From: Bacteroidota bacterium
GTDB taxonomy: Bacteria > Bacteroidota > Bacteroidia > Chitinophagales > Chitinophagaceae
DNA length: 64,000 bases
Reading direction: 5' to 3'
NCBI GenBank assembly: GCA_013286425.1
Contig: JABDFS010000004.1
Coordinates: 1-64,000 of the forward strand
Positions 17,720 through 43,016 of this stretch are shown here, piece after piece (positions within the stretch are counted from its first letter, which is position 1; each line of letters opens with the position of its first letter). A program made the translations under genes and the position numbers. Below the pieces are notes generated by a model that was not told the origin of the DNA, ran no database searches, and saw only the letters and a program-made list of their open reading frames with translations.

Positions 17720-17725
17720 GAAAAA

Positions 17726-17827
17726 CTTGCTATGCCTTTTCCTGTAACGGTTGAAAATGATCCCTGTCAATCTGCTTTGCTGCGGCCTGAAATATATTTC
17801 AGCGGGCTGCTGGTATTAAAAAAATAA
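17726..17827 (+). promoter_or_regulatory. Conserved susC leader (copy 1)
   Basis: About 100 nt nearly identical to 34496-34597, including palindrome CTGAAATATATTTCAG. Confidence 0.7.
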
Positions 17828-17952
17828 TTACCGAAGTGTCGATTGATTCCTGCTGTTAAATGAAGAAGTGCAAAGTGGCACATCTTATACTTATTCTCTC
17901 TTTAAAAAGAGGGTACAAACTCCTTTTGTCTTTAATGCAAAACAAAATAGCC

Positions 17953-20900: not shown

Positions 20901-21171
20901 GAATGATGAATTAAGAATGTCAACTTATCTTATTGAACCGGGACAATATTTAAAACTTAGAAATATTCAGTTAGGGTATAATCTGCCAAAATCATTCAGC
21001 ACAAGATTAGGCATGGAAAGGTTCTATATCTATGTAGTGGCTGAAAACCTTCTCATGTTTAAGAGCAGCCAATTCACCGGCCCTGATCCTGAAAATGCAG
21101 ATGGCCAATCATACGCAAATCCTTACGTAAGGCCACAGGTATTTAAAACAGGTATAGAAGTTTCGTTCTAA
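17953..21171 (+). CDS. SusC/RagA-type TonB-linked outer membrane transporter 1
   Basis: CarboxypepD-reg domain, TonB plug, GTQGGAGVILIQTKKG, C-terminal ...FKTGIEVSF. Start at 17953 preferred because it aligns with the second copy (MYLNLIKLHPALL...). Confidence 0.95.
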   Translation: MNLNFIELHPALLVTRCLKPFMQMRKKITALLLTMFLLNSFLFAQQSPVTGKITDEKSNPLIGVAVKVSGSHTGVITDVNGNFSINASKGQTLEISYVGKMNEKVIVGDNSLINITLKDQTGSDLNEVVVTGYMTQKKADLTGAVAVVSAKDLSKDHGTTNIMQSLQGVVPGLHISTDGNPTGNVDVQIRGLTSLNGGSPLIVIDGVPSYMNLRDINPDNIASMQILKDAYSASIYGTQGGAGVILIQTKKGQAGKAKISYDGSVGFASWNNKPAMLNTMQYGQALWQAAVNDGQDPNAVTQIYDYDWHKDASGIPVLDKATPIAYLNADSTMPSANTNWLDAISQNGIQQNHQLTISGGNDKSTSLLSLNYMENQGTQIYTGYKRFTLRVNTDYKVINDHFSIGENVEASHMLVNDQNVMHDALVEPPIIPVHTTDGGWGGSAVALGMDDYWNPVRELTLNKDNGDKYNKLYGDVHANVYLKNFTLHSQLGMIYTDGYHRNIQFTFEEGGGKFNPISSVDQWYWRETTLDLTNTIDYKYNKGKHNLDVLGGMEANKYVTETMDANRQDIAFQNYDYAYLSTATGNMSMSGGGDKYNLMSYFGKFNYSYNSKYLLSGSLRYDGSSKFGSDNRFALFPAISGGWRISQEDFLANNNVISDLKLRASWGKNGSLANINSLNAQTFFAPDYNVTSYSIDGSETGSLPSGFYKVQTGNQDLRWEGTTQTNIGIDFGFFKQALSGSLDFYKKYTDGMLVSPPYPGAEGEGANQFINAADMTDKGVELSVTYSSRSHKDFNYQISGNIAYNKNVVDDLPASVQYSWGGSALKGDGIDGHPWGSYYGFIADGIYQNQQQVDAGPDQPGKGIGRIRYMDISGPDGKPDGKIDYDYDRTWIGNNVVIQNGGLATVVPKVEYGFSINLSYKSFDLSMSWQGVAGIEEYDGWKSYSDFWNVWVQNGFNHPTRVLDAWTPTNTSSTIPALSLNNVNDELRMSTYLIEPGQYLKLRNIQLGYNLPKSFSTRLGMERFYIYVVAENLLMFKSSQFTGPDPENADGQSYANPYVRPQVFKTGIEVSF

Positions 21172-21232
21172 TCATTACACAAAAATCACAGCGTTTAAAA
21201 TTACATGTGACGAAAAAATAAAAAGCATACAC

Positions 21233-22972: not shown

Positions 22973-23051
22973 TCAAACAAAAAATTAGTACACTTCCAGC
23001 GCATTCACTTTATATTTTGTAAATTAAACAGCCATTCCTGAAAACAAAAAT

Positions 23052-24215
23052 ATGCATATGAAAAAAATAGTATTGATTGCTTTAGCCAGTTGTTTATCGG
23101 CAGTAATTTTTGCTCAAACATTTAACGGCATTAATTCAGACATGAGTAATATATACATGTTGTCTGATGCTAAATCACGTTCCATCAGCCCGGAAAATTT
23201 CAACGGTGAGAAAGGAAAAGGCGGTATGGCAACAACAGGCACAGGTCAAAGTGCAGCAAGAGATTTAGGCAAAGGCTGGAAGGTAAGTCCAAGCGTTGTG
23301 ATTAAAGCACACACAACATTTACGGTTGCAGAAATTACAGGTTCCGGTTCTATTCAACATATATGGATGACACCAACCGGTAACTGGCGTTTTTCAATAT
23401 TGCGTTTTTATTGGGATGATGAAACAACACCTTCTGTTGAAGTGCCCGCTGGTGATTTCTTCGGCCAGGGCTGGGGCAAGTTTGCTCAAATAAATTCATT
23501 GGCAATATGCGCTAACCCGGGCAGTGGTTTTAATTGTTACTGGCCAATGCCTTTCAGAAAAAAATGCAGGATCACTATGGAAAATATAGACGATGAAGAC
23601 ATGGTTTTATATTACCAGGTTGATTATATACAAACTGGTGTTCCAAAAGATGCGGCTTATTTTCATGCACAATTCCGTCGTACAAATCCATTGCCATACA
23701 AACAAAATTATGTGTTGGTTGATAGCATAAAAGGTAAAGGCCAGTATGTTGGTACTTATATGGCGTATGGTTCTCATAACAATGGTTGGTGGGGTGAAGG
23801 AGAAATTAAATTCTTTATCGATGGCGATACTGATTATCCAACAATAAACGGTACAGGAACAGAAGATTATTTTTGCGGTGCATATGATTTCGATACACGC
23901 AAGAAAAATGCTCAGGGTATAGATGAAGTGAACTACACAGAATTTTCATCACCCTATACAGGATTACCACAGGTTATTGGAGGTGACGGTCACTACACTG
24001 TTGCCCAACGTTTCGGTTTATATCGCTGGCATCTGAAAGATCCTATTCGTTTTGATAAAGATTTAAAAGTAACAATACAGGCATTGGGCTGGCGCGATGG
24101 TGGGCGTTATCTTCCTTTGCAGGATGATATTGCAACAACTGTTTTCTGGTATCAGACAGAACCGCACAATCCTTTTCCGCCATTGCCTGATAAAGATCAT
24201 CTTGAAGTGAACTAA
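23052..24215 (+). CDS. DUF2961 / GH172-type protein 1
   Basis: GSGSIQHIWMTPTGNWRFSILRFYWDDETTPSVEVPAGDFFGQGWG, GTGTEDYFCGAYDF. Confidence 0.88.
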   Translation: MHMKKIVLIALASCLSAVIFAQTFNGINSDMSNIYMLSDAKSRSISPENFNGEKGKGGMATTGTGQSAARDLGKGWKVSPSVVIKAHTTFTVAEITGSGSIQHIWMTPTGNWRFSILRFYWDDETTPSVEVPAGDFFGQGWGKFAQINSLAICANPGSGFNCYWPMPFRKKCRITMENIDDEDMVLYYQVDYIQTGVPKDAAYFHAQFRRTNPLPYKQNYVLVDSIKGKGQYVGTYMAYGSHNNGWWGEGEIKFFIDGDTDYPTINGTGTEDYFCGAYDFDTRKKNAQGIDEVNYTEFSSPYTGLPQVIGGDGHYTVAQRFGLYRWHLKDPIRFDKDLKVTIQALGWRDGGRYLPLQDDIATTVFWYQTEPHNPFPPLPDKDHLEVN

Positions 24216-24280
24216 AATTTATAATCCATACAGAATAAATTTCTAAATTGATTTGCAAAATGTTTTACAGTAAAGTTTAG

Positions 24281-24574
24281 ATGGTATCGAAAATAGTTGT
24301 GATAATAGTTTTAATTGGTTTAGTTTCATATATACAAGCAGGTGCACAAAGGAGCAATGCTAATATTGCTCCTTTTAAAATAAAACTAACTAATGAGGAA
24401 TGATATATTTATCAGCAATTGTAAAAGAATAAGCCTGTTATATTGATTTATTTTTCGCCAACCTGCGATCATTGTAAAACATTTACTGAAGCTATGTTGA
24501 GACGCATAAGCAGTTTGTGCAATGATCAATTGGTATTGATTTCTTATGAAAACATTAAAGAAGTAAAAGCCTGA
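24281..24574 (+). pseudogene. Thioredoxin-like protein pseudogene with two in-frame stops
   Basis: One frame reads MVSKIVVIIVLIGLVSYIQAGAQRSNANIAPFKIKLTNEE*YIYQQL*KNKPVILIYFSPTCDHCKTFTEAMLRRISSLCNDQLVLISYENIKEVKA*, with a CxxC active-site-like motif. Confidence 0.7.
24348..24376 (+). promoter_or_regulatory. Hairpin upstream of lacI (copy 1), possible terminator
   Basis: AAAGGAGCAAT...ATTGCTCCTTT; same stem conserved upstream of the second lacI-like ORF. Confidence 0.6.
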
Positions 24575-24631
24575 AGCAATAGCCAATCAATTATAAAAAT
24601 TTATTTTAAAGCGCAGCTTAATATTTAACCA

Positions 24632-25651
24632 TTGGAAAAGAAAGTAGCACTTAAAGATGTAGCACAACATATCGGCGTGTCGGCGGCACTTGTTTCTTAT
24701 GTATTGAATGGCAAAGAAAAAGAAGCAAGAGTAGGCGCTGAGATGGCGAAGAGAATTAAGAAAGCTGCTGCGGAATTAAACTATCAGCCCAACTTGATTG
24801 CGAAAAGTTTAAAGATGGGTAAAACAAAAACCATTGGTTTAATTGTAGCAGATATTTCAAACCCGTTCTTTTCAACCATTGCAAGAATTATAGAAGATGA
24901 AGCAAAGAAGCATGGTTATGTTGTAATATTTGGCAGCAGCGATGAAAGTGCAGACAAACAACTGGATCTGATCGATGTGTTTTCAACAAGATTGGTTGAT
25001 GCATTTATAATTGCACCTGCTGCAGGCACAGAAGAACAAATTCAAAACATCATCAATCGCGGTGTGCCTGTTGTATTGATGGACCGTTTCTTTCCTAATC
25101 TTAAAGTTGATTGTGTACACATCAATAATCTGAATGCATCGGGTAAAGCGGTAAAGCAATTGATAAAGAATGGCCGCAAAAAGATAGGGATGTTGGCTTA
25201 TGATACAACGCAATCGCACATGCAGGATAGAAAGCAGGGTTATAAAGCAGCATTAAAGGAAAAAAATATAAGGTTCAAAAAAGAATGGTTGATTGAAGCA
25301 AGCTATCAGCATCTTGAAAAAGATGTTGCAGATAAAATAAAACCATTATTAAAACCATTACAAATTGATGCATTGTTTTTTGCAACCAACTCATTGGCAG
25401 TTGCAGGTTTAAAAGAGATCAACAAACTTGGTATAAAAGTACCAGATGATCTGGCGATCATTTCTTTTGATGAAAGCGATGCATTCGATTTCTTTTATTC
25501 ACCGGTTACTTATGTAAGTCAATCGTTGGCAGACATTGGTAAAGAAGCTATTAAACTTGTAATAAACAGGTTGCATAGTAAGAGCAAGAAAAATACAAAC
25601 GTTATTGTTGAAGCAAAATTAATTGTGCGCGAAAGTTGTGGCAGTTTATAA
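24632..25651 (+). CDS. LacI-family transcriptional regulator
   Basis: TTG start; VALKDVAQHIGVSAALVSYVLNGKEKEARV HTH, hinge helix YQPNLIAKSLKMGKTKTIGLIVADISNPFFSTI, periplasmic-binding-like C-domain. Confidence 0.95.
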   Translation: MEKKVALKDVAQHIGVSAALVSYVLNGKEKEARVGAEMAKRIKKAAAELNYQPNLIAKSLKMGKTKTIGLIVADISNPFFSTIARIIEDEAKKHGYVVIFGSSDESADKQLDLIDVFSTRLVDAFIIAPAAGTEEQIQNIINRGVPVVLMDRFFPNLKVDCVHINNLNASGKAVKQLIKNGRKKIGMLAYDTTQSHMQDRKQGYKAALKEKNIRFKKEWLIEASYQHLEKDVADKIKPLLKPLQIDALFFATNSLAVAGLKEINKLGIKVPDDLAIISFDESDAFDFFYSPVTYVSQSLADIGKEAIKLVINRLHSKSKKNTNVIVEAKLIVRESCGSL

Positions 25652-25692
25652 TTGCTTACAATGATGATTATAAATAAACTGATTGGATTTGC

Positions 25693-27693
25693 ATGTTCAA
25701 TAGAATACGATATATGTTGAGTGTTAGAAGCTGGTTGCCAGTTTTAATATTGATGATCTCTGTTCAGGTTCATGCACAAAAGAAGATAGAGCTTTCATCA
25801 CCGGACGGAAATATTCAATTCAAATTTTTGTTTACAGACAGTTTGCCTGTTTACAGTGTTGCATACAACGGAAACACGATCATCGAACCATCATCATTAA
25901 GCTTATCATTTAATCAATCAGGAATATTTGGTAAGGCATTAAAAATTGGTAAAGCATTACATAGTTCCGGTGTTGATGATTACGAACTGGTTGTTGGCAA
26001 AACAAAAAAAGTTTATGATAATTATAATGAAGTTTCTATTCCTTTAGAAGAAAGCACTGGCGATAAAAGATTGATCAATTTAGTTGTAAGAGCTTTTAAT
26101 GATGGTGTTGCTTTCAGATATGAAATGCCTCAGCAAAAAAACTGGTCTTCGTGTGAATTAACTTCAGAAAACACAACCTTTCATTTCAACGGCAATCCAA
26201 TGGTGTTAACAGGTTTTTTACCTGATTATACATCGGCGCATGAATCACGTCATACATGGCTTTCATTAAATGATATCAAAGAAGATACATTAATGGATAT
26301 GCCAACATTGATTGAGTTTCCGGGTAAAGTTTATATGGCAATCACGGAAGCCGAGCTGGTTGACTATGCAGGCATGTATTTGATAAAAAAAGATGGCATA
26401 TTTGAAAGCAGTCTATCACCACTTCCGGATCAACCCAACATAAAGGTAAAAGCAACATTACCGCATAAATCTCCATGGCGTGTTATGTTGATAAGCAACA
26501 GGCCTGGTGCATTGATCGAATCAAACATCATCACCAGTTTAAATGAACCTTGCGCAATAAAAGATGTATCATGGATCAAGCCCGGCACATCAGATTTTCA
26601 TTGGTGGAATGGCGATATATTGCCCGATACAACTTTTCCGCCGCAGGAAGATTTTTTATTCAATAAATACTATATAGATTTTTGTTCGCGCAATCACATC
26701 ACCTATCATTCTGTAATTGGTTATGGTGGTTATCCCTGGTATACAAGTGATGCTGAAGGTTATGGTGTTATTGGTCTGCACACCGATGTTACCAAGCCAA
26801 TTCCAACAATTGATATGGACCAGATTTGCGAATATGCAAAAAGTAAAAATGTTGATATAAGATTTTGGGTGCATTGGCAGGCGATCTATCCTGATCTTGA
26901 AAGATCATTTTCGCAATTTGAAAAATGGGGCGTAAAAGGAATGATGGTTGATTTTTTAAATCGCGATGACCAGGAAATGGTGAACATTCAAACAGAAATA
27001 TTACAGGTTGCTGCTAAACATCATTTACATATTCAGTTTCATGGCGCATACAAACCAACGGGTTTAAGCAGAACATATCCAAATGAATTTACACGTGAAG
27101 GAACATTAAATTATGAGAACGATAAATGGGGCAATGTAATAACGCCTGATGATGATTTAGGCGTTGTGTTTACAAGAATGTTGTCAGGCCCAACAGATTA
27201 TCATCTTGGTGGTTTCAGAGCTGTGTCGCCATCAAAATATAAAATTCAATATACAAAGCCATTGGTGGTTGGTACGCGTTGCCACATGCTGGCCATGTAT
27301 GTTGTACTGGAAAGCTATTTACAAATGATCTGCGATTACCCGGCAGCTTATGAAGGGCAACCAGGTTTTGAGTTTTTAAAAGATATTCCCACAACTTGGG
27401 ATGAAACAAAAGTGCTGGATGCAGAAGTAAATAATTATGTAGTTATCGCGCGCAGAAAAGATAATGATTGGTATGTTGGATCAATTACAAATCATGATAC
27501 GAGAGCCCTAAAGATCAATTTTAATTTTTTATCTGAAGGAAAGTATAGAGCAGAAATTTATACAGATGCTGATGACACAGATGTGAATGCAAATGACCTG
27601 AACAAAAAAACTATAAACATTACAAATAAAGATGTAACCACCATAAAACTTTCAGCCGGTGGCGGTATGGTAATGCATATTTATAAAAGTTAG
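25693..27693 (+). CDS. Glycoside hydrolase family 97
   Basis: IELSSPDGNIQFKF, GVKGMMVDFLNRDDQEMVN, HFHGAYKPTGLSRTYPNEFTREGTLNYE. Confidence 0.9.
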   Translation: MFNRIRYMLSVRSWLPVLILMISVQVHAQKKIELSSPDGNIQFKFLFTDSLPVYSVAYNGNTIIEPSSLSLSFNQSGIFGKALKIGKALHSSGVDDYELVVGKTKKVYDNYNEVSIPLEESTGDKRLINLVVRAFNDGVAFRYEMPQQKNWSSCELTSENTTFHFNGNPMVLTGFLPDYTSAHESRHTWLSLNDIKEDTLMDMPTLIEFPGKVYMAITEAELVDYAGMYLIKKDGIFESSLSPLPDQPNIKVKATLPHKSPWRVMLISNRPGALIESNIITSLNEPCAIKDVSWIKPGTSDFHWWNGDILPDTTFPPQEDFLFNKYYIDFCSRNHITYHSVIGYGGYPWYTSDAEGYGVIGLHTDVTKPIPTIDMDQICEYAKSKNVDIRFWVHWQAIYPDLERSFSQFEKWGVKGMMVDFLNRDDQEMVNIQTEILQVAAKHHLHIQFHGAYKPTGLSRTYPNEFTREGTLNYENDKWGNVITPDDDLGVVFTRMLSGPTDYHLGGFRAVSPSKYKIQYTKPLVVGTRCHMLAMYVVLESYLQMICDYPAAYEGQPGFEFLKDIPTTWDETKVLDAEVNNYVVIARRKDNDWYVGSITNHDTRALKINFNFLSEGKYRAEIYTDADDTDVNANDLNKKTINITNKDVTTIKLSAGGGMVMHIYKS

Positions 27694-27738
27694 TTTGATG
27701 ATAAAATCATAAATTTTTAAATAATACAATCAATCATA

Positions 27739-27754
27739 GCTTAAACGATTAAAT
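27739..27754 (+). promoter_or_regulatory. LacI-type operator 4 (internal, abutting a start codon)
   Basis: GCTTAAACGATTAAAT ending 1 nt before ATG at 27756. Confidence 0.7.
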
Positions 27755-27755
27755 T

Positions 27756-29078
27756 ATGAACTTTAAAAAAACAAGCTTGTTATTAGTTTATCCAAAGAAG
27801 CAGAACAAACTCTTTAGCCTTTCAACCATCATCTTCACTTCAATTATTATAATTATTATGACGACAATACCTTCATGCACAACTACTGAAAAGAAACAGG
27901 CAACAAGTGATAATGATTCAACTGTATCATCAAATTTTGAAAAAGGAACTTTTGGTTACGATCTTAATTTTCTTCAGCAACATGACAGTGTTCTCGTTTT
28001 AAAATCCAATAATGATAACGCACAGATTATTGTATCACCAAAATACCAGGCGAAAGTTTTTACATCAACTGCAAATGGCAATGATGGTTTTAGTTTTGGC
28101 TGGGTAAACTACAAGGCATTTACCGGCCCCGAAGACGCGCACATGAACGCATACGGAGGTGAGAATCGTTTGTGGCTTGGTCCTGAAGGAGGCCGGTTTT
28201 CTTTGTTCTTTAAACCCGGCGATTCAATGGTATTTAATCATTGGAAAACACCTGCAGCATTTGATTCAGAACCATGGAAAGTAACTGCACAAACAAGCAG
28301 TTCTGTAACCATGCAAAAAGATATGCAGTTGATCAATTATCATAATACACAACTGCAATTATCTGTAACAAGAGCCATTGATATTTTGAGTAATGATGAT
28401 ATCAGCAGAAACACCGGTTTAACTTTGGATACAAGCATAAAAGTTGTCGGTTATCAAACGACAAATACATTAGCTAATACCGGTAAAGATGAATGGACAG
28501 AAACAACAGGAATGCCCTGCATCTGGATTTTAGACATGATGAAAAACACACCGTCAACTGTTATTGTTGTGCCGTATAAAAATGCTGCGGGCGCTAACTT
28601 TAATGATGTTGCTACAACAAATTATTTTGGTGAAATTTCTGTAGACAGGTTAAAGCATGATGACAATAAATTATTATTTAAAGCTGATGGAAAAAGCCGT
28701 GGAAAATTGGGCATCAAGCCAAAATTTGCAAAGCCTGTTTTAGGCAGTTATGATGCGCAGAATAAAGTATTAACCATTGCGATGTTTGAACCTGATGCAT
28801 CGGCAAAATATTTAAACCAGGAATGGAACACAACCAAACCATCGTTCTCTGGTGATGCAGTGAATGCATACAATGATGGCCCATTAGCAGATGGTTCACA
28901 AATGGGACCATTCTATGAAATTGAAAGCGTATCACCTGCTGCATTTTTAAAACCCAATCAATCAATCGTACATAAACAGTCCGTATATCATTTCACAGGC
29001 GATGAAAAAGCATTGGATGCAATCAGTCAAAAAATATTAGGTGTTACATTAAACGAAGTGCAAACAACATTTAAATAG
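27756..29078 (+). CDS. Putative lipoprotein, possibly DUF6786-like
   Basis: TTIPSCTTTEKKQ lipobox-like region; body recalls PUL-associated DUF6786 proteins (family call from memory, not searched). Confidence 0.55.
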   Translation: MNFKKTSLLLVYPKKQNKLFSLSTIIFTSIIIIIMTTIPSCTTTEKKQATSDNDSTVSSNFEKGTFGYDLNFLQQHDSVLVLKSNNDNAQIIVSPKYQAKVFTSTANGNDGFSFGWVNYKAFTGPEDAHMNAYGGENRLWLGPEGGRFSLFFKPGDSMVFNHWKTPAAFDSEPWKVTAQTSSSVTMQKDMQLINYHNTQLQLSVTRAIDILSNDDISRNTGLTLDTSIKVVGYQTTNTLANTGKDEWTETTGMPCIWILDMMKNTPSTVIVVPYKNAAGANFNDVATTNYFGEISVDRLKHDDNKLLFKADGKSRGKLGIKPKFAKPVLGSYDAQNKVLTIAMFEPDASAKYLNQEWNTTKPSFSGDAVNAYNDGPLADGSQMGPFYEIESVSPAAFLKPNQSIVHKQSVYHFTGDEKALDAISQKILGVTLNEVQTTFK

Positions 29079-29160
29079 TGAATGGTGAATATTCAATTAG
29101 TGAATATCAACCATTCACTATTCATCATTGATTATTCACTACTCACAACTCACCATTCAC
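29078..29160 (+). repeat. Intercistronic inverted repeat upstream of fucI-like gene
   Basis: GTGAATGGTGA (29078-29088) / TCACCATTCAC (29150-29160), with internal AGTGAATA / TATTCACT. Confidence 0.8.
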
Positions 29161-29170
29161 AAATTTAATT

Positions 29171-30946
29171 ATGAGTCAACAAACAGATTATCCAAAGATT
29201 GGCATTCGCCCGATTATCGACGGGCGTTTAGGTGGCATTCGTGAATCGTTGGAAGAAACTACAATGAAGATGGCGCAGAATGTTGCCGCCTTATACGAAA
29301 AAGAATTACGCTATCCTGATGGCTCTCCGGTGCAATGTGTTATTGCAGATACATGCATTGGCGGTGTGTATGAAGCTTCGCAATGTGCAAAGAAATTCGA
29401 AAGTAATAACGTCGGTGTGTCGTTGTCTGTTACACCTTGCTGGTGTTATGGAAGTGAAACAATGGATATGAATCCTTTGTTGCCAAAAGCAATCTGGGGC
29501 TTTAACGGAACAGAAAGACCGGGCGCTGTTTATCTTGCAGCAACGCTTGCAGCGCATAACCAGTTTGGTTTACCTGCATTTGGAATTTATGGAAGAGATG
29601 TGCAGGATCTGGGTGATGAAGCAATTCCTGCAGACGTAAAAGACCGCCTATTAAATTTTGCACAAGCTGGTTTAGCAGTAGCTATCATGCGCGGTAAATC
29701 TTATCTCGCAATTGGTTCTGTTTCGATGGGAATTGCAGGTTCTATTGTTGTGCCTGATTTCTTTCGCGAATATCTCGGCATGCGCAATGAATATGTTGAT
29801 TCATCTGAAGTGTTGCGCCGTGTTGAAAAGAAAATTTATGATGAAACAGAATTTGAAAAAGCGTTAGACTGGGTTAAGAAAAATTGTAAAGAAGGTGATG
29901 ACCTTGCGAATGAATCGAATAAACAATCATCAAGAGAACAAAAAGATAATGACTGGCAATTTGTTGTTAAGATGACATTGATCATGCGTGATCTTATGCA
30001 GGGAAATGCGCAGTTAAAAAATAAAGGTTTTGGTGAAGAAGCATTAGGGCATAATGCAATTGTATCGGGCTTCCAGGGGCAACGTCAATGGACAGATTTT
30101 TTGCCCAACGGTGATTTCTCTGAGGCCATATTGAATTCTTCTTTTGACTGGAATGGCATTCGCGCGCCATACATGGTAGCGACAGAAAATGATTGCTTTA
30201 ATGGCATCAGCATGTTGTTTGGTTATTTGCTTACCAACACTGCACAAATATTTGCTGATGTAAGAACATACTGGAGTCCAGAGGCTGTTGAAAGGGTTAC
30301 AGGATGGCAGCCTGATTCAGCAGCAGCCAATGGATTCATTCATCTTATCAACTCAGGTTCTGCAACATTAGATGGGACAGGACAGCAACAAAAAGATGGT
30401 AAGCCAGTTATGAAACCTTTCTGGGAAATTAATGCAGATGAAGCGGATGCTTGTTTGCAGGCAACAACATGGTATCCCGGTAACAAAGGTTATTTCAGAG
30501 GCGGTGGTTATTCATCAAAATTTGTAACAAAAGGTGGTATGCCTGTAACCATGTGCCGCATCAATTTAGTAAGAGGTGTTGGCCCTGTGTTGCAAATTGC
30601 AGAAGGTGAAACGATCGATCTTCCGCAAAATGTTCACGACACATTGGATAAACGAACAGATATTACATGGCCAACAACATGGTTTGTGCCACGTATAACA
30701 GGCAAAGGCGCGTTCACTGATGTATATAATGTGATGTTGCATTGGGGCTCAAATCATGGCGCTATAAGTTATGGTCATGTTGGCGATAAATTAATAACAT
30801 TGGCTTCTATGTTACGCATTCCTGTTTGTATGCATAATGTAGATGACGAAAAAGTATTTCGCCCTTCTGCATGGAATGCATTTGGTTCAGAAACAGAAGG
30901 CGCAGATTATCGTGCCTGCAATAACTATGGAGCATTGTATAAATAA
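29171..30946 (+). CDS. fucI: L-fucose isomerase / D-arabinose isomerase
   Basis: [65 protein letters not shown]. Confidence 0.95.
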
Positions 30947-30961
30947 AAAAGTATCACCAAA

Positions 30962-32251
30962 ATGAACAATAAAAGACCATCACTCTTTGTAAAAGACGGC
31001 ATTAATTACCTTGGACCATTTGCAGCAATCAGCGCATTATTTTTTTTGTGGGGAATAGCGCATGGCATGCTCGATACACTGGATAAAAATTTTCAAATGA
31101 TGCTGCATTTGCAAAAATGGCAATCCAGCTTTATCCAGTTTTCTTTGTATGGTGCTTATTTTGGTATGGCTATACCTGCAGGTATTTTTATAAAAAAATA
31201 CGGCTATAAAAAAGGAATAATTTTCGGGCTTTCTCTTTTTGCAGCCGGTGCACTTATTGCTGCAGGAACGGCCACGCTTCAATCATTCATTTTATTTTTG
31301 TTTTGCCTGTTAATTATTGGTGCAGGATTGGCAACACTTGAAACAGCTGCTAATCCATATACAACAAAATTGGGTCCTCCTGAAACAGCGGAAAGAAGAA
31401 TTAATTTTTCCCAATCTTTTAACGGGCTTGCCTGGATGATCGGCCCGCTGATCGCCTTGTATATTTATGGTAATCAGAGTCATGAAGAAGGTAAAAAAAT
31501 GATTTCAATTATTTTACCTTTTGCTATAATCGGGCTGGTTGTTTTAGCGATTGCATTTGTTTTCATGCGCATAAAATTGCCTGAGATAACGGAAGCGGAT
31601 GAAAATGCAGCACATGGCGCTATAGTAACACAAACTTCAGAAACAGGAATAGTTACAAGTGTTGACGATCCCGGATATATATCTCCAAAGCCATTATGGA
31701 AGAACCAGCATTTTACATTAGGTTTTGCTGCACAGGCTTGCTACGTAGCTGCACAAACCGGCGTGTTTAGTTACCTGATAAATTTTGTTACGGATCATGA
31801 CATGCATCCTCGTTTTGATGTGGAATATGCTCCGTATTTTTTATCACTTGGGTTTTTATTATTTATGATAGGGCGATTTTCCGGCAGCAATTTGATGCGA
31901 TTTTTTAAGCCTTCAAAAATGCTTGCTCTTTATTCACTTGCGGTTTGCATTCTTTTGCCCATAGTTTCTTTGGAACTTGGCTGGGCTTCACTTATAGCTT
32001 TGTATGGTGTTTTCTTTTTTATGTCGATTATGTTTCCTACGATTTTTGCACTGGCTATTAAATCGCTGGGATATAATACTAAAGAAGCTTCATCTTTTTT
32101 AGTGATGGCTGTTGCCGGTGGAGCAGTGTTTCCACCGTTAATGGGAGCTGTCGCTGATCACTATGGTATGGCAACAGGGTTTCTTGTGCCCATACCTTTA
32201 TTTTTATTCATATTATACTATGCACTTAAGGGATATAAAATAACAGCGTGA
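30962..32251 (+). CDS. FucP-type MFS sugar:H+ symporter
   Basis: FFLWGIAHGMLDTLDKNFQ, LETAANPYTTKLGPPETAERRINFSQSFNGLAWMIGPLIA, FPTIFALAIKSLG. Confidence 0.9.
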   Translation: MNNKRPSLFVKDGINYLGPFAAISALFFLWGIAHGMLDTLDKNFQMMLHLQKWQSSFIQFSLYGAYFGMAIPAGIFIKKYGYKKGIIFGLSLFAAGALIAAGTATLQSFILFLFCLLIIGAGLATLETAANPYTTKLGPPETAERRINFSQSFNGLAWMIGPLIALYIYGNQSHEEGKKMISIILPFAIIGLVVLAIAFVFMRIKLPEITEADENAAHGAIVTQTSETGIVTSVDDPGYISPKPLWKNQHFTLGFAAQACYVAAQTGVFSYLINFVTDHDMHPRFDVEYAPYFLSLGFLLFMIGRFSGSNLMRFFKPSKMLALYSLAVCILLPIVSLELGWASLIALYGVFFFMSIMFPTIFALAIKSLGYNTKEASSFLVMAVAGGAVFPPLMGAVADHYGMATGFLVPIPLFLFILYYALKGYKITA

Positions 32252-32354
32252 CGGAATCAAATGGAAAGTGTAATAGATGATGGGTATGTGATTAATAGCA
32301 GAGAGTTATCATACTGAAATCAGAGTAAAACTTTTACAAATAATATTCTCCATA

Positions 32355-34310
32355 ATGAAATCGCCTTTTTTATGCATGATCTTTTTATGCATTACAACAT
32401 GCATGTATGCACAAAAAACAATTACTGTTGTTGATGAACTGAAACAGTTTTATAACATTAGTGATTTACCGGCATATCGCTCAAACACTTACTCCGCTGA
32501 GGTTTCAAGCTATGATACAACAGGAGGCAACAACGATGGCTTTGGTGGCGAGTATTCTTTTATAAAAAGAAATGCCGACAGCTCTCTTGTAATTTTTGAT
32601 GTAAAAGGCGCAGGTGTTGTAAATCGAATCTGGACACCAACACCAACACATGATACACTTGATTTTTATATTGATGATGCGAAGCAACCAACACTATCCA
32701 TTAATTACATGGACCTTTTTTCCGGTAAAGTCTATCCGTTTGTTCAACCTATTTGTGGTAACCAGTTAGGTGGCTATTATTGTTACTATCCAATACTTTT
32801 TCAAAAGCATTGTGTTATCATAAGTCGTGGCAAGAAGATGATGTTTCACCAGATCGGTTATCGCTTATATGGCAAAGGAACAATTGTTCAGCCGTTCACA
32901 ACAAACATCAACAATGATGTAAAAAATGCATTGGCTTTCATCAGCAGCTTATGGAACAACAGTGAAGTGAATAAAGCAAAAGCAATTGCATTAAACAATG
33001 TTGATGCAAAAGCTACAGATACAGTTTTTTCAATAAAGCCGGGTGATATGAAACAAGCATTTAAGTTGAATACTGGCGGAAGAATTACCGGAATTGAGAT
33101 CAGTCCTTCAAGCAGTTTTGCATCGTTGTATAAGAACATTATCATACAGGTTTTTTGGGATGATGAAACAACTCCGGCAATTGATTGTCCTGTTGCAGAT
33201 TTTTTTGGTTTCGCATTCGGAAAACCTTCTATGCAAGGCTTATTGATCGGTTCAGAAAATAATATTTGTTATAGTTTTTTACCAATGCCTTTTGACAAAA
33301 AAGCAAGAATAGAATTCAGTTATTTGAATGCAAAAGATAGTGTGCTACCCAAGATTGATCTGCATGCAAAAGTTTATTACACACTTCAACCACGCAATGC
33401 AGATAAAGAAGGAAAGTTTTATGCTTACAGAAACAGCAAAAGAACAAAAGATGGCGAGCCGCATGTGTTTTTAAATATACAAGGCAAAGGCCATTATGTG
33501 GGTTCTGCGTTGCAGGCACAAGGCGTAAAAACAGGCATGACAATATTTTTTGAAGGCGATGATTCAACCGTTATTGATAACGAAATGCGTTTTCATGGTA
33601 CGGGCTCTGAAGATTATTTTAATGGTGGCTGGTATGCATTGTTAAATCGTTGGGATTCTAAACTGAGTTTGCCTTTGCATGGCGCGCTGGATTATTCATT
33701 GGCATTTGCAAGAACAGGTGGTTACCGTTTTTATATTACAGATAAAATGTCTTTTGAGAAAAGTATTTATCAAAGTATTGAACACGGCGGCGAACATAAT
33801 GCTGTTCCTGCTTTATATACTTCTGTGAGTTATTTCTATTGCGACAGATCTCCTCAATTAGCATTATCAAACACAACTGAAAACACTAGGGTCTATATAC
33901 CTGATACAATCAATATCTATCCGCAGTTTTCAAATGTTGTATTAGGTGAAGATATCGATGTAAAAACAGTTTGGGACAATACTGATGAAGGTCAAAGCTT
34001 TGATATAACTGCAATCGATAACAGCCTGTTGAAAGTTGTGCTGGGCGATATACCTGCCGGTAATTATAAGTTATTTATCTCTTATGCAAAACAACCGCAC
34101 GGTTGTGATTTTTCTTTGTGGCAAAGGCAGACACAATTATCAGAGTGGCAATCATCTTCTACGACTGATAAACAAAAAATAAAAGAAATGTTTGTTGGAA
34201 ATATTCATATAACTGAGTTGAACAATGCTGCTACTATTCAATTTAAAACAACAGCAGACAACAATAAATTTCTGTGGACTAAACTGATGCTTGTAAAGGC
34301 AATTGAGTAA
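32355..34310 (+). CDS. DUF2961 / GH172-type protein 2 (long form)
   Basis: KGAGVVNRIWTPTPT, IIQVFWDDETTPAIDCPVADFFGFAFG, GTGSEDYFNGGWYALLNRW. Confidence 0.88.
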   Translation: MKSPFLCMIFLCITTCMYAQKTITVVDELKQFYNISDLPAYRSNTYSAEVSSYDTTGGNNDGFGGEYSFIKRNADSSLVIFDVKGAGVVNRIWTPTPTHDTLDFYIDDAKQPTLSINYMDLFSGKVYPFVQPICGNQLGGYYCYYPILFQKHCVIISRGKKMMFHQIGYRLYGKGTIVQPFTTNINNDVKNALAFISSLWNNSEVNKAKAIALNNVDAKATDTVFSIKPGDMKQAFKLNTGGRITGIEISPSSSFASLYKNIIIQVFWDDETTPAIDCPVADFFGFAFGKPSMQGLLIGSENNICYSFLPMPFDKKARIEFSYLNAKDSVLPKIDLHAKVYYTLQPRNADKEGKFYAYRNSKRTKDGEPHVFLNIQGKGHYVGSALQAQGVKTGMTIFFEGDDSTVIDNEMRFHGTGSEDYFNGGWYALLNRWDSKLSLPLHGALDYSLAFARTGGYRFYITDKMSFEKSIYQSIEHGGEHNAVPALYTSVSYFYCDRSPQLALSNTTENTRVYIPDTINIYPQFSNVVLGEDIDVKTVWDNTDEGQSFDITAIDNSLLKVVLGDIPAGNYKLFISYAKQPHGCDFSLWQRQTQLSEWQSSSTTDKQKIKEMFVGNIHITELNNAATIQFKTTADNNKFLWTKLMLVKAIE

Positions 34311-34348
34311 TGTAATTCAAAATTGTCTTGATCTAATGAAGTTTTTTT

Positions 34349-34364
34349 GCTTAAACGATTAAAT
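34349..34364 (+). promoter_or_regulatory. LacI-type operator 5
   Basis: GCTTAAACGATTAAAT. Confidence 0.75.
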
Positions 34365-34409
34365 AACCATATTTTCGTCAGGCTTTCTTTGAAATTGCTA
34401 CTTATCATT

Positions 34410-34425
34410 GCTTAAACGATTAAAC
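34410..34425 (+). promoter_or_regulatory. LacI-type operator 6
   Basis: GCTTAAACGATTAAAC. Confidence 0.75.
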
Positions 34426-34476
34426 AAATAAATATAGGTAGTAATTTATTATTAAACCGATTGAAGAATCCAAATT

Positions 34477-34492
34477 GCTTAAACGATTAAAT
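34477..34492 (+). promoter_or_regulatory. LacI-type operator 7
   Basis: GCTTAAACGATTAAAT. Confidence 0.75.
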
Positions 34493-34495
34493 GGA

Positions 34496-34597
34496 CCTTG
34501 CTATGCCTTTTCTTGTAACAGTTGAAAATGATTCCTGTCAATCAGCTTTGTTGCGGCCTGAAATATATTTCAGCGGGCTGCTGGTATTAAAAAAATA
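34496..34597 (+). promoter_or_regulatory. Conserved susC leader (copy 2)
   Basis: Near-identical to 17726-17827. Confidence 0.7.
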
Positions 34598-34722
34598 AGT
34601 ACCAAAAGTATTGACTGAATTTCTTATTAAACAATGATGTGCAGTGCGGCGCATCCTAATTTATTTTCTTTATAAAAGGAGAGTACAATATTCTGTTGTT
34701 CTTAATTCAAAACAAAATAACC

Positions 34723-37700
34723 ATGTATCTGAATTTAATCAAACTGCATCCGGCACTGCTTGCTGCGCGATGCTTAAAGCCTATCACGCAAATGCGAAAA
34801 AAAATAATCGCAGTGTTGCTTACGATGTTTTTATTAAACAGCTTTCTCTTTGCACAACAGCCAGGTGTTATGGGAAAAGTGACAGACGAAAAAGGTAATT
34901 CACTTACCGGGGCATCTGTTAAAATATCCGGCAGCCATGGAGGTGTAATTACAAATTCCGATGGTAGCTTTTCTATTAAAGCAGCTAAAGGACAGGTTTT
35001 AGAAATATCATATGTCGGTAAGACTGATGAAAGAGTTGTTGTTGGTGATAATACTACTATAAACATCATTTTAAAAGATCAAACTACATCTGGTTTAAAT
35101 GATGTAGTGGTAGTAGGATATGGAACACAAGCGAAAAAAGACTTGACCGGATCAATAGGCGTCGTATCTCAAACCAAGATGGATAACCAGGCAACTGTGG
35201 GAATAGGGCAAAATCTTCAGGGTAAACTAGCCGGTGTCCAGGTGATTCAAAATGATGGAACACCATACAGCGGTACTTCAATCAGGATAAGAGGAACGGG
35301 CTCGTTTGGAGCATCAAGTGACCCGCTTGTTGTAATTGATGGTATGATCACCAATGATGGATTAACAAATCTTAATCCCAATGATGTTGAAAATATAACA
35401 GTGCTTAAAGATGCAGCTTCCGCTGCGATTTACGGTTCAAGAGGTGCTAACGGTGTAGTGATCGTAACAACTAAAAAAGGAAATTTTGAACAACCATTGC
35501 AGGTAAATTTCTCCACGTATGCCGGTGTTGATCAAATACGCTATAAGATACCAACATTAACTGCAAAGCAATATGCAGTTCAGATAAATGATTATTACGG
35601 TGCAGCTAATCTGCCTGTGCCTTTTACACAAGATGAGATTAATTCATATGGGCAAGGAACAAATTGGGTTGATGAAATAACACAGTCCGGAATGAAACAG
35701 AATTATTCTTTATCAATTTATGGCGGCACAAAAACTAATGCATTTGCTATAACTGCAAATTATTTTGATGGGAAAGGGGTTATAAAAAATACAGATTTTC
35801 AGCGCGGCAATATTAAGATAAGCAATGATACCCGTCTTTTACCAAATTTGAAATTAGGAATAAGCCTGAATGTAAATTATGGCGTTTCAAATAATACGGA
35901 TTGGGGCCAGGCAATTGACCGCGCGTTGATATTTCCTCCTACAGAACCTGTTTATGATGCAAATGGCGATTACAGTGCTGCAATACATAATGGAGAGCCT
36001 GTTACTATGTTGAATCCGCTTATTGCAGTGAACTTATGGACATATAAACAAACCTGGAAAAAATTATTAGGAACAACTTATTTAGAATGGAACATTTTTA
36101 AAGATCTCACATTCAAAACTTCTTTCAATGCAGAATACTATGGATGGAATCAGGATCATTTTATACCTTCTTATACTTTCGGACCTAAAGGATTAATAGG
36201 TGATCATCCGATTGCAGAGCTTTATGAAGATGGGAATGATAACATCAATTGGGAATTTGATAATATCCTTACTTATTCGAAGCGCTTCAACAACGTTCAT
36301 AACTTAACGGTTATGGCGGGTTATACATTCCAGGAAACCAATGGATCTAATATAAGCGGATCGAGGAATGATTTTTTGAATAATGATCCAAACATGCAGG
36401 TGTTGGATGCAGGTAACAGCAACATCAGTAATGGCGGTTCTAAATATTCGTGGGCCATACAATCTTATCTTGGTCGTATAAACTATAGTTATAAAGACAA
36501 ATACTTATTGAGCAGCAGTTTAAGAGTTGATCAGACTTCACGTATCTCAAGCGATAACAGAACCGGAGTATTTCCTGGAGCATCAGCTGGCTGGGTTATT
36601 TCAAAGGAAAAATTTTTTGACAAAGTGCCTTTTATAAGCAATTTAAAACTTCGTGCAAGCTGGGGAATATTAGGAAACCAGGATATTGGAACATATCCTT
36701 ACCAAACCACATTAAATTCTACTGGTTTGTATTATCCGTTTGGTGCCGGTGGCGAAGGAACAACATATACAGGTGTGGGTCCGACAAGTTTGGGCAACCC
36801 AAATATTCGCTGGGAAAAAACAACAACATATGGAGCAGGCCTGGAAGCTTCATTCTTAAACAACAGGTTAACTTTTATTGCTGATTACTATAAAAGAAAT
36901 ACTTCCGATATTCTTGTTCAGGTTCCTTTGCTTGCCACTTCAGGAGTTGATAATGCTCCTTATCAAAATGCAGGTAGTGTATCAAACAACGGTATAGAAT
37001 TAACGTTAGGTTATTCTGATCAGATCGGCAAATCTTTTAAATATGATGTTAGCGTTAACTGGACTCACAATACAAACATTGTTACAAAAGTTCCATCACC
37101 TATAGTATATGATTTTAGCCAGACTGCAGAAGGTCAATCTATAAATGAATGGTACGGATATGTTCAGCAAGGTATTTTTCAAACCCAGGACGAGATTAAT
37201 AAAGCTCCAACACAACCTAATGCCGCACCCGGCGATATAAGATTTAAAGATCTAAACAAAGATGGTGTTATTGATGCTAATGACCGAACTTTTTTAGGTG
37301 CTTCAGTAGCTCCGGATTATTACGGAGGCAATATTTCTTTAGCGTATAAAGGCTTTGATCTGGTTACAAGTTTTTATGGACAAATAGGCGCACTCAGAAG
37401 CATAGACCAGGTTGGTTTTGCAATCACTCGTGGTGGAGAACAAACTTCAGCATGGATGTATGATCAAAGATGGACCGGCCCAGGAACAAGCAATTATGTA
37501 CCAAGAGTAGTTGCAGGTGATCCAAATGATAATTACCGCAGGTCTACTTTCTGGCTTCGCTCATCTGATTTTTTCAGGCTGCAAAATTTGCAGGTCGGTT
37601 ATGATTTCCAGGGTTTATTAAATGGCTCAGCGGCAAGAACTATAAACAAGTTGCGTTTTTATGTTGCAGCTCAAAATTTGTTTTGTATCAATTCTTATCC

Positions 37701-37801: not shown

Positions 37802-39397
37802 ATGAAAAAGACAATTTTCTTCTTAATATTTCTAATCCCATTTGCTTCATGTAACAAGCAATTAGATAAGCAACCTTATGGTGTTGTTTCTACTGACAAT
37901 TTTTATAAAACTGCAGATGATGCAGAAATGGCTGTTACAGCAGCTTATAAATCGTTCCAGATGTTAGATGGACAGAACGGGTGGAATACTCAGGCTGGTT
38001 ATACACCTATGGGAGATATAACTGGCCCTGATGTGCAGGCTCATCCTGATTTGGTTGTATACTATCAAATTCAGCAGTCGATTATTACTCCAAGTTCTGA
38101 TCAGATGGAAATGTTGTATCAACGTTGTTATAAAGCGCTTTTATTAGCTAATGAAGCAATAGAAAAGATACCTGCAATTGATATGGATGAAACTCTAAAA
38201 TCCAGGTATATGGGAGAGCTTTATTTTATCAGGGGATTTTGGATGTTTCGTTTGGGATATATGTTTGGTACAGCACCTTTGGTTACTGGACCATTGGATA
38301 TATCAGAATTAAATATTCCTAATTCTGTAAGAACAGCTGAATTCGATAATGGTAAAAACGTTAATAATTATAAGATCACAAAAAGCGATTTGTTTGACCA
38401 GGCTGAAGCTGATTTCAAACTGGCATTGCAATCACCAATTGCAGACAGGAATACCGGTGATTTAATGGGGAGAGCAGATAAAGGCGCTACAAGTGCGTAC
38501 CTAGCTCAGATATATTTATATGAGCATAGATGGAGTGATGCCAAGCCTTTGTTGGAAAATATAATTTCTTATGGTTATGCATTGCTTCCTGATTATAACG
38601 ATGTATTTAACGGCAGCCATGATAACAGTACTGAAGCAGTTTTTGAAGTGCAATACACAGCTTTAAATCAAAAAGGAACAGACAATTTTGGTACAGTGTT
38701 GAATGCGCCAAACGGGGAAGGATATGTTGCTGGTGGCGGTTGGGGATGGACGCGCCCAACACCGGATTTAGAGTGGGAATATGAAGCAGGTGATCCGCGC
38801 TTAACAGCTTCTATTTTCCGTAAAGGCCAGGACGATTTTTTCGGACAGATCTTTATGGATAAAGTAAACGGAACAGGCCTCGGAATCAGGAAATGGTGTA
38901 TTGGTAATCCACCAAATAATGATGGCACTACGGTTGACCAGGTTAGCTGGAATAATTCAAGCAATTACACTTTGGTAAGATATGCTGAAGTATTGTTGTG
39001 GTATGCTGAAGTTATGAACGAGTTAGGAGACCAGGCAACAGCAGCAGCTTATGTAAATAAAGTAAGAGCACGTACAGGTACAACTACGGATCCTAATACT
39101 GTCAATAAAAATGATATCAAACAATTGTCTCCAATTTCTTCAACATTAAGCTATGAAGATATGTTTTGGGCTATTGTGCACGAGCGTAGAGTTGAATTTG
39201 CTTTTGAAGGAAAATTTGGTTGGGATTTAAGAAGATGGGGAATAGCAAGCGAATATCTTACTGATCCAAAAAGATGGCAAAACCAGGTAACACCAGGTTA
39301 CTTCAAATATAAAGTTGGAAAGGATGAAATTTTTCCATTGCCACAAATTGAGATCGATAGATCAGCTGGTACTTTAAAACAAAATCCAGGATATTAA
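37802..39397 (+). CDS. SusD/RagB-type outer membrane lipoprotein 2
   Basis: Lipobox PFASCNKQLDKQP; ELYFIRGFWMFRLGYMFG; EIFPLPQIEIDRSAGTLKQNPGY. Confidence 0.95.
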   Translation: MKKTIFFLIFLIPFASCNKQLDKQPYGVVSTDNFYKTADDAEMAVTAAYKSFQMLDGQNGWNTQAGYTPMGDITGPDVQAHPDLVVYYQIQQSIITPSSDQMEMLYQRCYKALLLANEAIEKIPAIDMDETLKSRYMGELYFIRGFWMFRLGYMFGTAPLVTGPLDISELNIPNSVRTAEFDNGKNVNNYKITKSDLFDQAEADFKLALQSPIADRNTGDLMGRADKGATSAYLAQIYLYEHRWSDAKPLLENIISYGYALLPDYNDVFNGSHDNSTEAVFEVQYTALNQKGTDNFGTVLNAPNGEGYVAGGGWGWTRPTPDLEWEYEAGDPRLTASIFRKGQDDFFGQIFMDKVNGTGLGIRKWCIGNPPNNDGTTVDQVSWNNSSNYTLVRYAEVLLWYAEVMNELGDQATAAAYVNKVRARTGTTTDPNTVNKNDIKQLSPISSTLSYEDMFWAIVHERRVEFAFEGKFGWDLRRWGIASEYLTDPKRWQNQVTPGYFKYKVGKDEIFPLPQIEIDRSAGTLKQNPGY

Positions 39398-39497: not shown

Positions 39498-39525
39498 AAA
39501 GGAGCAATGCTCACATTGCTCCTTT
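39498..39525 (+). promoter_or_regulatory. Hairpin upstream of truncated lacI (copy 2)
   Basis: AAAGGAGCAATG-CTCA-CATTGCTCCTTT, 12-bp perfect stem. Confidence 0.6.
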
Positions 39526-39620: not shown

Positions 39621-39872
39621 TTGGAAAAGAAAGTAGCACTTAAGGATGTAGCACAACATATCGGCGTATCGGCAGCGCTTGTTTCTTACGTGCTCAACGG
39701 CAAAGAAAAGGAAGCAAGAGTAGGTGCAGATATGGCGAAGAGAATAAAGAAAGCTGCTGCGGAATTAAACTATCAGCCCAACTTGATTGCGAAGAGTTTA
39801 AAGATGGGTAAAACAAAAACGATCGGTTTAATTGTAGCAGTAATTAATGATGCATGCTTTGCATCACGTTAA
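39621..39872 (+). CDS. Truncated LacI paralogue, DNA-binding domain plus hinge only (83 aa)
   Basis: First 77 aa match the LacI at 24632 with one E/D substitution, then diverge to VINDACFASR* and stop. Confidence 0.8.
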   Translation: MEKKVALKDVAQHIGVSAALVSYVLNGKEKEARVGADMAKRIKKAAAELNYQPNLIAKSLKMGKTKTIGLIVAVINDACFASR

Positions 39873-39893: not shown

Positions 39894-42800
39894 ATGAAAG
39901 AATCTTTTCTTGTTATAAGTTTTCTTGTTAGCGCAGTCATTACATTTTCACAGCCTGTTGATTCATCTCATCATGTTCCGGAAAATAAAAATCTTCCTGC
40001 GTCATGGAAAGCATCTTTATACAGCGATCAAAAAAAAAATTTTAAAGGGGATGAATTGTTAACCATTGGCATGCCTTGCGGTGGCATTGCTGCAGGCCAG
40101 TTGTATGTTAGAGGCGACGGAACTTTAGCAAACTGGTGGATCTACAATAATGCATACAATACAGGTTATGGTATTGATTCATTAACGCATTTTAATACAG
40201 CGCTTGGTCCATGGACTGTTTGTTATAATACATTCGAACCAAAAAGTTATATCGACCAGGGATTCAACGTCAAGATCAAACAGGATGGAAAAACAATAAG
40301 CGCTAATTTGAACAAGAAAGATTTTGATGATATATCATTCATTGGTGAGTATCCGATCGCTACCATCAACTATAATTCAACAACAAAAAAATTACCGGTA
40401 ACAGTTTCATCAGAAGTGTATTCACCATTCATTCCAATGAATGCAAAAGAATCTGCAACACCGGGAACAATTTTAAAATATACAATTAAGAACACATCCG
40501 CAAAACCAATGCAGGTAAGCCTTTCAGGCTGGCTGCAAAATTTTGTTTGTTTAGATATTGAAGGTGGTATTCTTGCTGATCGCCGCAACAGGATCATTCA
40601 TCATGATGGCATTACTTCTTTGGTAATGGATCTTACTCAAACCAATGCAAGCAATGCAGAAAAGAAACCAACCATACAAATGTTTGATGATTTTGAAAAT
40701 GGTTATGGTAAATGGAAAGTAACAGGCACTGCATTTGGTACGACGCCTGCATCAGGAAGTTTTGGTGGTGATCAAAGCAGGCTTACAGGTTTTACCGGTA
40801 ATGGTGTTGTCAATTCTTTTTTAAATGGTGATGGTTCAACCGGTAAAATGGTGTCTGATAATTTCACCATCAAAGACGATTATATCATTTTTAAAATTGG
40901 TGGTGGCAGGCATGCAACAACAACTTGTTTCAATCTTATAGCTGATAACAATATTGTAAGAACCATGACTGGTTCAAACACTGAAATACTCGAACAAAAA
41001 TATTGGGATGTAAAAGATCTGAAAGGTAAGCAGGCACATTTTGAAATTGTTGATGCAGACAAAGGTGGCTGGGGCCATATTAATATGGATGATATTGGCT
41101 TTAGCGATATACCTGTTACAAAAGAAAAATATTATCCAATCAATCATCCGTATTTCGGTAATGGATCGTTGAGTGTTTTGTCAAACAATGCTTTTGCGGA
41201 TGCAGATTATAAAGGTGTTGATGACAGCAACAATGTTGATTCAGCATCCACAACAGCTATTGATAAATTAACAGGCAGTGTTGGCGAATCATTCAATCTT
41301 AATCCCGGCGAAACAAAAGAAGTTACATTCCTGCTTACATGGTATTTTCCTAACCGTCCTTCTTATTATTTTGGAAGTGATGTTACCGATGTTATTCCAA
41401 ACGATTGGAACCAGGCATTGCCAACAGACGGTGCAACAATCATCGGAAACATGTACAGCAACTGGTTCAACAGTTCAGAAGATGTTGCTTTATATCTTCA
41501 AAAAAATTATGATCGTCTTTCAAAAGCCACGCATCTTTTTCATGATACTTATTACAACAACACAACAGTTCCTTACTGGCTCACACAGCGTTTGCTGATG
41601 CCGCTTTCAACACTCGCAACGGAAACATGCGAATGGTGGGCGAATGATAAATTCTGGGCCTGGGAAGGTGTTGGCTCATGTGTTGGAACCTGTACGCATG
41701 TCTGGAATTATGAGCAGGCAATGTCACACTTCTTTCCTGAACTCGAGCGCAATGTGAGAGAGTGTACCGACTTTGGTACATCATTTCAAAAAGATGGTAG
41801 CGTACTCGCGCGTAATGGTTGGGGTGGTGTTTTAATTGATGGGCATGCTGGTGCTATTTTAAAAGCGTATCGTGAGTATCTCAATTCAAAAGATGATATT
41901 TTTTTAAACCGTAACTGGGACAGAATAAAACGTGCAACTGAATTTATTATTCATGAAGACAGCAACAACGATGGTTTGATTGAAAAAGTACAGGCCAACA
42001 CATACGACATTGCATTTTATGGTGCGAATACTTATGTTGGCTCATTGTATCTCGCTTCATTAAAAGCCGCTTCAGCTATGGCAATTATTATGAATGACAC
42101 TGCATTTGCAGAGCGCTGTTTAAAGATTGCACAGGCGGGAGAAGATAACACGGTAAAAAGATTATGGAACGGTGAATATTTTGTGCAGGATGTTGATCTG
42201 AAAGCGCATCCGGAATATCAATATAAAGATGGTTGTTTAAGTGATCAGCTGTTTGGGCAAACATGGAATCATCTAAATAATCTCGGCTACATTTATCCTG
42301 AAGAAAAAGTGAAGCAAACATTGCAATCAATCTGGAAATATAACTGGGCGCCTGATGTTGCAACACAAAATAGAATTCATCCACCGGAAAGAACATATGC
42401 AAGTTTTGGTGAGCCGGGTTTATTGGTTTGCACGTGGCCAAAGAGTGAACACATGGGTGAGAAAGGTGTTCGTTATCGTGATGAAGTTTGGACAGGACAG
42501 GAGTACCAGGTTGCAACGAATATGATCTATGATGATATGGTTGATGAAGGCTTGTCAATTGTAAAAGGAATTGATGAAAGATATAGTCCGCAAAAACATA
42601 ATCCATGGAATGAGATCGAATGCGGCGATCACTATGCAAGAGCGATGGCTTCATGGGGTGTGATGCTGGCATTGGAAGATTATTTTTATGACGGTCCGCA
42701 AGGCATCATCAGTTTTAATCCAAAAATTCAGGCATCACATTTTGAAGGATTTTTTACAAGTGCCGAAGCTTGGGGAAACATTAAACAGGATCAGGCAAAT

Positions 42801-43016
42801 AATCAGCAAAAAAATTCTATCGTTGTAAAGTATGGCAATGTTTGGTTACAACAAATACAATTGCATTGCGATAAAGAACCAAACAGTATAAAGCTGTTCA
42901 TTAATAACAAGCAAATAAAAAATAGTTATGTTTTTAATGATAACATGGCTTCAATTATGTTTGATAAAACTACATTGAATGCAAATGATGTTATTGATGT
43001 AACAATTGCTTATTGA
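39894..43016 (+). CDS. GH116-type glycoside hydrolase with inserted beta-sandwich module
   Basis: GMPCGGIAAGQLYVRGDGTLANWWIYNN, GTCTHVWNYEQAMSHFFPELERNVRE, ANTYDIAFYGANTYVGSLYLASL, GCLSDQLFGQ; insert MFDDFENGYGKWKVTGTAFG...GWGHINMDDIGFSD. Confidence 0.88.
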   Translation: MKESFLVISFLVSAVITFSQPVDSSHHVPENKNLPASWKASLYSDQKKNFKGDELLTIGMPCGGIAAGQLYVRGDGTLANWWIYNNAYNTGYGIDSLTHFNTALGPWTVCYNTFEPKSYIDQGFNVKIKQDGKTISANLNKKDFDDISFIGEYPIATINYNSTTKKLPVTVSSEVYSPFIPMNAKESATPGTILKYTIKNTSAKPMQVSLSGWLQNFVCLDIEGGILADRRNRIIHHDGITSLVMDLTQTNASNAEKKPTIQMFDDFENGYGKWKVTGTAFGTTPASGSFGGDQSRLTGFTGNGVVNSFLNGDGSTGKMVSDNFTIKDDYIIFKIGGGRHATTTCFNLIADNNIVRTMTGSNTEILEQKYWDVKDLKGKQAHFEIVDADKGGWGHINMDDIGFSDIPVTKEKYYPINHPYFGNGSLSVLSNNAFADADYKGVDDSNNVDSASTTAIDKLTGSVGESFNLNPGETKEVTFLLTWYFPNRPSYYFGSDVTDVIPNDWNQALPTDGATIIGNMYSNWFNSSEDVALYLQKNYDRLSKATHLFHDTYYNNTTVPYWLTQRLLMPLSTLATETCEWWANDKFWAWEGVGSCVGTCTHVWNYEQAMSHFFPELERNVRECTDFGTSFQKDGSVLARNGWGGVLIDGHAGAILKAYREYLNSKDDIFLNRNWDRIKRATEFIIHEDSNNDGLIEKVQANTYDIAFYGANTYVGSLYLASLKAASAMAIIMNDTAFAERCLKIAQAGEDNTVKRLWNGEYFVQDVDLKAHPEYQYKDGCLSDQLFGQTWNHLNNLGYIYPEEKVKQTLQSIWKYNWAPDVATQNRIHPPERTYASFGEPGLLVCTWPKSEHMGEKGVRYRDEVWTGQEYQVATNMIYDDMVDEGLSIVKGIDERYSPQKHNPWNEIECGDHYARAMASWGVMLALEDYFYDGPQGIISFNPKIQASHFEGFFTSAEAWGNIKQDQANNQQKNSIVVKYGNVWLQQIQLHCDKEPNSIKLFINNKQIKNSYVFNDNMASIMFDKTTLNANDVIDVTIAY

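Follow-up and report, generated by a model that had tools for sequence, protein, structure and literature searches.

The open reading frame at 39621..39872 (+ strand), with a TTG start and 83 codons, is in our judgement (probability about 0.7) what is left of the 5′ end of a second gene for a LacI repressor in the sugar-utilisation locus where it lies. It is the only short form of its DNA-binding domain (DBD) in the genomes searched, it lies where two relatives suggest that a second LacI gene would begin, and its domain was under purifying selection for nearly all its separate history.

The stub and its locus

The window, the whole stretch of 64,000 nucleotides that was analysed, corresponds to contig C4 in an assembly of 3.45 Mb (64% complete), and no named relative nearer than Parafilimonas terrae (Chitinophagaceae) was found. 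The genes of the locus form a sugar-utilisation cluster with the order SusC1-SusD1-DUF2961-(redoxin pseudogene)-LacI-GH97-DUF6786-fucose isomerase-transporter-DUF2961 in its first half, continuing after the second DUF2961 gene with SusC2-SusD2-stub-GH116-FGGY kinase-GH116. In the window, the GH97 gene (25693-27693) stands as an insertion between LacI and DUF6786, and P. terrae, SZAS-21 and Foetidibacter lack it at that place. Between DUF2961 and LacI, a redoxin/thioredoxin-like pseudogene (24281-24580) contains two in-frame stops and is missing its 3′ half; the redoxin gene is intact and open in P. terrae and SZAS-21, and the pseudogene represents decay of sequence neighbouring the stub in the same locus.

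Coordinates of the stub, its paralogue and the surrounding features in the window
Feature	Position	Strand	Remarks
LacI HTH, hinge and first core strand of the stub	39621..39839	+	73 codons homologous to full-length LacI
Non-homologous tail of the stub	39840..39872	+	VINDACFASR and stop
Full-length LacI-family repressor	24632..25651	+	intact paralogue; TTG start, 339 aa
SusD2	37802..39397	+	upstream of the stub; in Foetidibacter luteolus, full-length LacI directly follows SusD2
GH116-family gene	39894..43016	+	directly 3′ of the stub; 21 bp gap to its ATG
Three putative LacI operators GCTTAAACGATTAAA	17574..17718	+	in front of SusC1
One putative LacI operator	27739..27753	+	in front of the DUF6786 gene
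Three putative LacI operators	34349..34491	+	in front of SusC2
Perfect 12-bp hairpin	39498..39525	+	3′ of SusD2, before the stub

The stub and the full-length LacI gene align without gaps and differ at 17 bases in 16 of the 73 codons, 15 of these codons being synonymous and the remaining one encoding E37D (D in the stub, E in the full-length protein). The first-pass annotation had arrived at the same 15 synonymous differences and one E/D exchange, but over about 77 codons, which overstates the aligned stretch. Similarity ends at GTA GCA, after which ten unrelated codons lead to the stop; from about 39845 onward the sequence resembles the spacer that precedes GH116a in P. terrae. A blastn comparison of the two copies yields 224 bp at 92.4% identity (E 3e-91), with the left edge of similarity 4 bases 5′ of the start codon, a proximity that would be coincidental if the sequences upstream had not been different from the outset, and one that counts against the reading favoured here. 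Pfam places an N-terminal LacI HTH in the stub (PF00356, 46.1 bits against a gathering cut-off of 27). Peripla_BP domains are present in the full-length gene, and no periplasmic-binding-protein-like ligand/dimerisation core is detected by Pfam in the 83-aa frame, which departs after codon 73. The recognition helix, the DBD and the hinge are the same in both copies except for E37D, and a third close copy of the LacI DBD was not found in the assembly. The first-pass description of a frame that retains the HTH and hinge of LacI and then ends, without the sensor/dimerisation domain, is thus confirmed.

Relatives and origin of the two copies

The DBD was searched for in 399 Chitinophagaceae genomes, one per species, and the search was repeated at the DNA level on the same genomes. 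All other close matches belong to open frames of about 340-390 codons, and the stub is the sole short one. At the level of species, this answers the question, raised in the first-pass annotation, of whether related genomes carry the full-length or the truncated form: every other close relative is full length. As is the case for a gene relic, an intact homologue exists and the truncated form occurs in one lineage only.

In the tree, the stub and the full-length LacI are sisters (support 99/98). They have the TTG start in common, which is GTG in the four nearest relatives (P. terrae, SZAS-21, Foetidibacter and Ilyomonas). The dS between the two copies is 0.40, against 1.37 to P. terrae, and the copies therefore parted, or were last homogenised, within this lineage after the split from P. 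terrae. The 5′ parts of the two SusC genes (promoter, leader and 5′ coding sequence; SusC1 17571-18341, SusC2 34346-35111) share 77% identity across 775 bp, and some stretches approach 90%; the same comparison in P. terrae gives only 119 bp at 71%. This likeness suggests copying or gene conversion inside the locus, so that copying between its halves would have happened more than once or as a larger event.

Regarding gene order, Foetidibacter has the arrangement SusC2-SusD2-LacI, with the full-length LacI 36 bp behind SusD2. In genome G089, one contig (C5) ends with SusC2-SusD2-DUF2961a and another (C4) starts with DUF2961a-LacI-DUF6786-FucI-FucP-DUF2961b-GH116a, DUF2961b lying directly before GH116a; the two contigs presumably join. 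In the window and in P. terrae, the SusC2-SusD2 pair is found between that second DUF2961 gene (b) and GH116. Since LacI stands behind SusC2-SusD2 in two relatives, either directly or one gene later, the stub sits where a second LacI would begin. P. terrae, which has the same gene order, contains no LacI between SusD2 and GH116a, only 325 bp. That spacer contains 11 bases that match the LacI start, a match reached by 7 of 2000 base shuffles and no more than suggestive of a relic of a LacI start there.

The sequence between SusD2 and the stub contains a perfect hairpin that may mark a transcript end or a processing site. Near-identical perfect hairpins, AAAGGAGCAATG..CATTGCTCCTTT, are found there and at 24348-24375, within the redoxin pseudogene, and these are the only two copies of the pattern in the whole assembly. 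A relic of a second redoxin gene may precede the stub: the pseudogene and the spacer have in common a 50-bp block (82%) that includes the hairpin, and the spacer alignment beats 300 shuffles. However, on either side of the hairpin the likeness is weak when taken alone (equalled by 7 of 300 shuffles before it and by 50 of 300 after it), and P. terrae has a similar hairpin in the same place behind SusD2. Around the stop codon of the stub, hairpins are no better than in shuffled sequence.

Selection on the domain and the probable loss of the 3′ part

A codon model was applied to the stub, the full-length LacI and four outgroups (72 codons, with saturated outgroups), and yielded an omega near 0 for the stub branch. 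Forcing an omega of 1 on this branch costs 4.2 log units, and all change then shifts to the other copy; neutrality throughout the stub branch, with equal time on both branches (clock), costs 14.4 log units. Under the clock assumption, the log-likelihood drops by about 1.9 (interpolated) at a stub-branch neutral fraction near 0.08, the neutral share of the stub's separate time being at most about 8% and selection being strong during at least about 92% of it. With the neutral model rejected and the neutral fraction so low, selection acted on the domain at the protein level throughout nearly all its separate history, and the purifying selection proposed for the DNA-binding part in the first-pass annotation is upheld. 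When changes are polarised by parsimony with P. terrae and SZAS-21, nine codons come out as derived on the stub, all of them synonymous, an outcome with a probability of about 5e-6 if neutral. Position 37 is D in P. terrae, SZAS-21 and Foetidibacter; by this comparison D37 is the ancestral residue, kept by the stub, and E is a change in the full-length gene. The selection signal is silent on whether the selected protein was already short, and it can predate the truncation.

All nine derived codons of the stub (39621-39839) changed to G/C-ending ones. The GC3 is 0.39 in the stub, 0.33 in the full-length LacI and 0.28-0.32 in the locus. This shift, which may come from a bias in the polarisation or from time spent in a genome richer in GC, is not accounted for by a simple local history and counts against the course of events proposed below.

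In the sequence of events that we favour, a second copy of the SusC2-SusD2-LacI module would have been placed upstream of GH116a, whether through partial tandem duplication, fusion of two loci or import from a related strain. Its LacI would have stayed a working full-length repressor, here or in another genome, during the greater part of its separate existence, until a deletion fused codon 73 to the spacer before GH116a and created the 83-codon frame. No trace of the missing 3′ part of LacI remains, and we therefore infer the truncation, which is preferred because the short form occurs in one genome only, the relatives are full length and have LacI at or near the site of the stub, and neighbouring sequence is decaying. 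As the frame is intact and carries no derived amino-acid change, the truncation would have to be young, as this reading requires; a domain selected until recently is what a young truncation would lead one to expect. The product would now most likely be functionless, or amount to a short headpiece, monomeric for the most part and of little effect; regulation would fall to the intact LacI at 24632 through the seven putative operators.

Putative operators, a possible role for the stub and known systems

The seven operators mentioned in the first-pass annotation are real as a pattern: perfect GCTTAAACGATTAAA sites start at 17574, 17637, 17704, 27739, 34349, 34410 and 34477, and no further perfect copy is present elsewhere in the 3.45 Mb assembly. 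They surfaced when the assembly sequence of the window was scanned for the 14-base palindrome CTTAAACGTTTAAG, at most two mismatches being allowed (chance level, 0.36 per window), and are likely LacI operators; the same motif core is found at corresponding places in P. terrae and SZAS-21. LacI/GalR regulators recognise a partly palindromic operator that has a central CG and lies close to the promoters they control, and by their pattern the seven are candidates for such sites. The motif has drifted (17574-34491): this lineage has the asymmetric CTTAAACGATTAAA, several other genomes of the family have the perfect palindrome TTAAACGTTTAA near LacI genes, and TTAAACGTTTAA is absent here. An operon that includes the stub would probably have its promoter in the region upstream of SusC2. 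No GCTTAAACGATTAAA site is found at the stub itself, which hence could be transcribed, at most, by read-through from the SusC2 promoter across the strong 12-bp hairpin.

This arrangement, with an intact frame downstream of three of the seven putative operators, is compatible with a selected, DBD-only mini-regulator that would be expressed as part of the SusC2 operon after LacI has left its operators and would compete weakly for them. The near identity of the short and full-length proteins in DBD, recognition helix and hinge and the nine derived codons without an amino-acid change would also agree with such a role, as would the predicted structure, which resembles the LacI headpieces 1l1m and 1cjg (TM normalised by target, 0.71-0.75). 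However, the mean pLDDT of the model is 62.7, with residues 55-83 below 50 and low confidence for the hinge and tail; the hairpin precedes the frame, and the selection signal can be older than the truncation. Tight operator binding in the LacI family needs dimerisation through the core domain, and its loss weakens the case for competition by the stub; a headpiece that stays monomeric would be a poor competitor at ordinary levels. In the NMR work on the isolated LacI domain described in PMC10539797, headpiece dimers on full operators were used, and strong operator binding is linked to a covalent headpiece dimer in the title of Kalodimos 2001, a reference in PMC13069688. The cysteine in the new tail of the stub could in principle link two copies. 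Given that a single genome carries the stub, a gene relic is preferred and the mini-regulator is unlikely. Of the two possibilities put forward in the first-pass annotation, recent truncation is accordingly the better fit, and competition for the operators has lost ground with the dimerisation domain. Gene conversion from the full-length LacI, by which a stub with no role of its own would borrow its selection signal from the donor, would suit the sharp edges of similarity and the likeness of the two SusC promoter-leader regions (775 bp, 77%), but it is improbable, as the stub has derived synonymous changes of its own, keeps D37 against E, and would be expected to gain amino-acid changes neutrally after the last conversion, whereas neutrality is rejected.

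A natural, selected LacI headpiece-only protein, encoded in the operon that it reads and acting as a ligand-blind competitor of its full-length paralogue, is an improbable prospect; a literature search found no DBD-only LacI paralogues named as such, a weak negative. If active, the short protein would be a naturally occurring competitor from the LacI family that senses no ligand. If instead the stub is what remains of a lost repressor, it is a small example of repressor duplication and loss during rearrangement of a sugar-utilisation locus, and a caution that the low dN/dS of a truncated copy can go back to selection that acted while the gene was still whole.

Compared with the LacI/GalR repressors (PF00356 plus Peripla_BP_3; closest solved structures CcpA, RbsR, PurR and LacI), the stub has a complete HTH, YxPN motif and hinge, but it is without the ligand-binding/dimerisation core and has its own unrelated tail of ten residues. 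In extent it equals the isolated LacI headpiece constructs (1l1m, 1cjg), comprising the DBD and the hinge, and the predicted fold matches; those are laboratory constructs on operator DNA, whereas the stub is genomic and its product putative. Finally, like bacterial pseudogenes and deletion stumps, it occurs in a single genome, has lost the 3′ three quarters of the gene, is fused to spacer sequence and has another pseudogene nearby; unlike them, its frame is intact and free of derived amino-acid changes.
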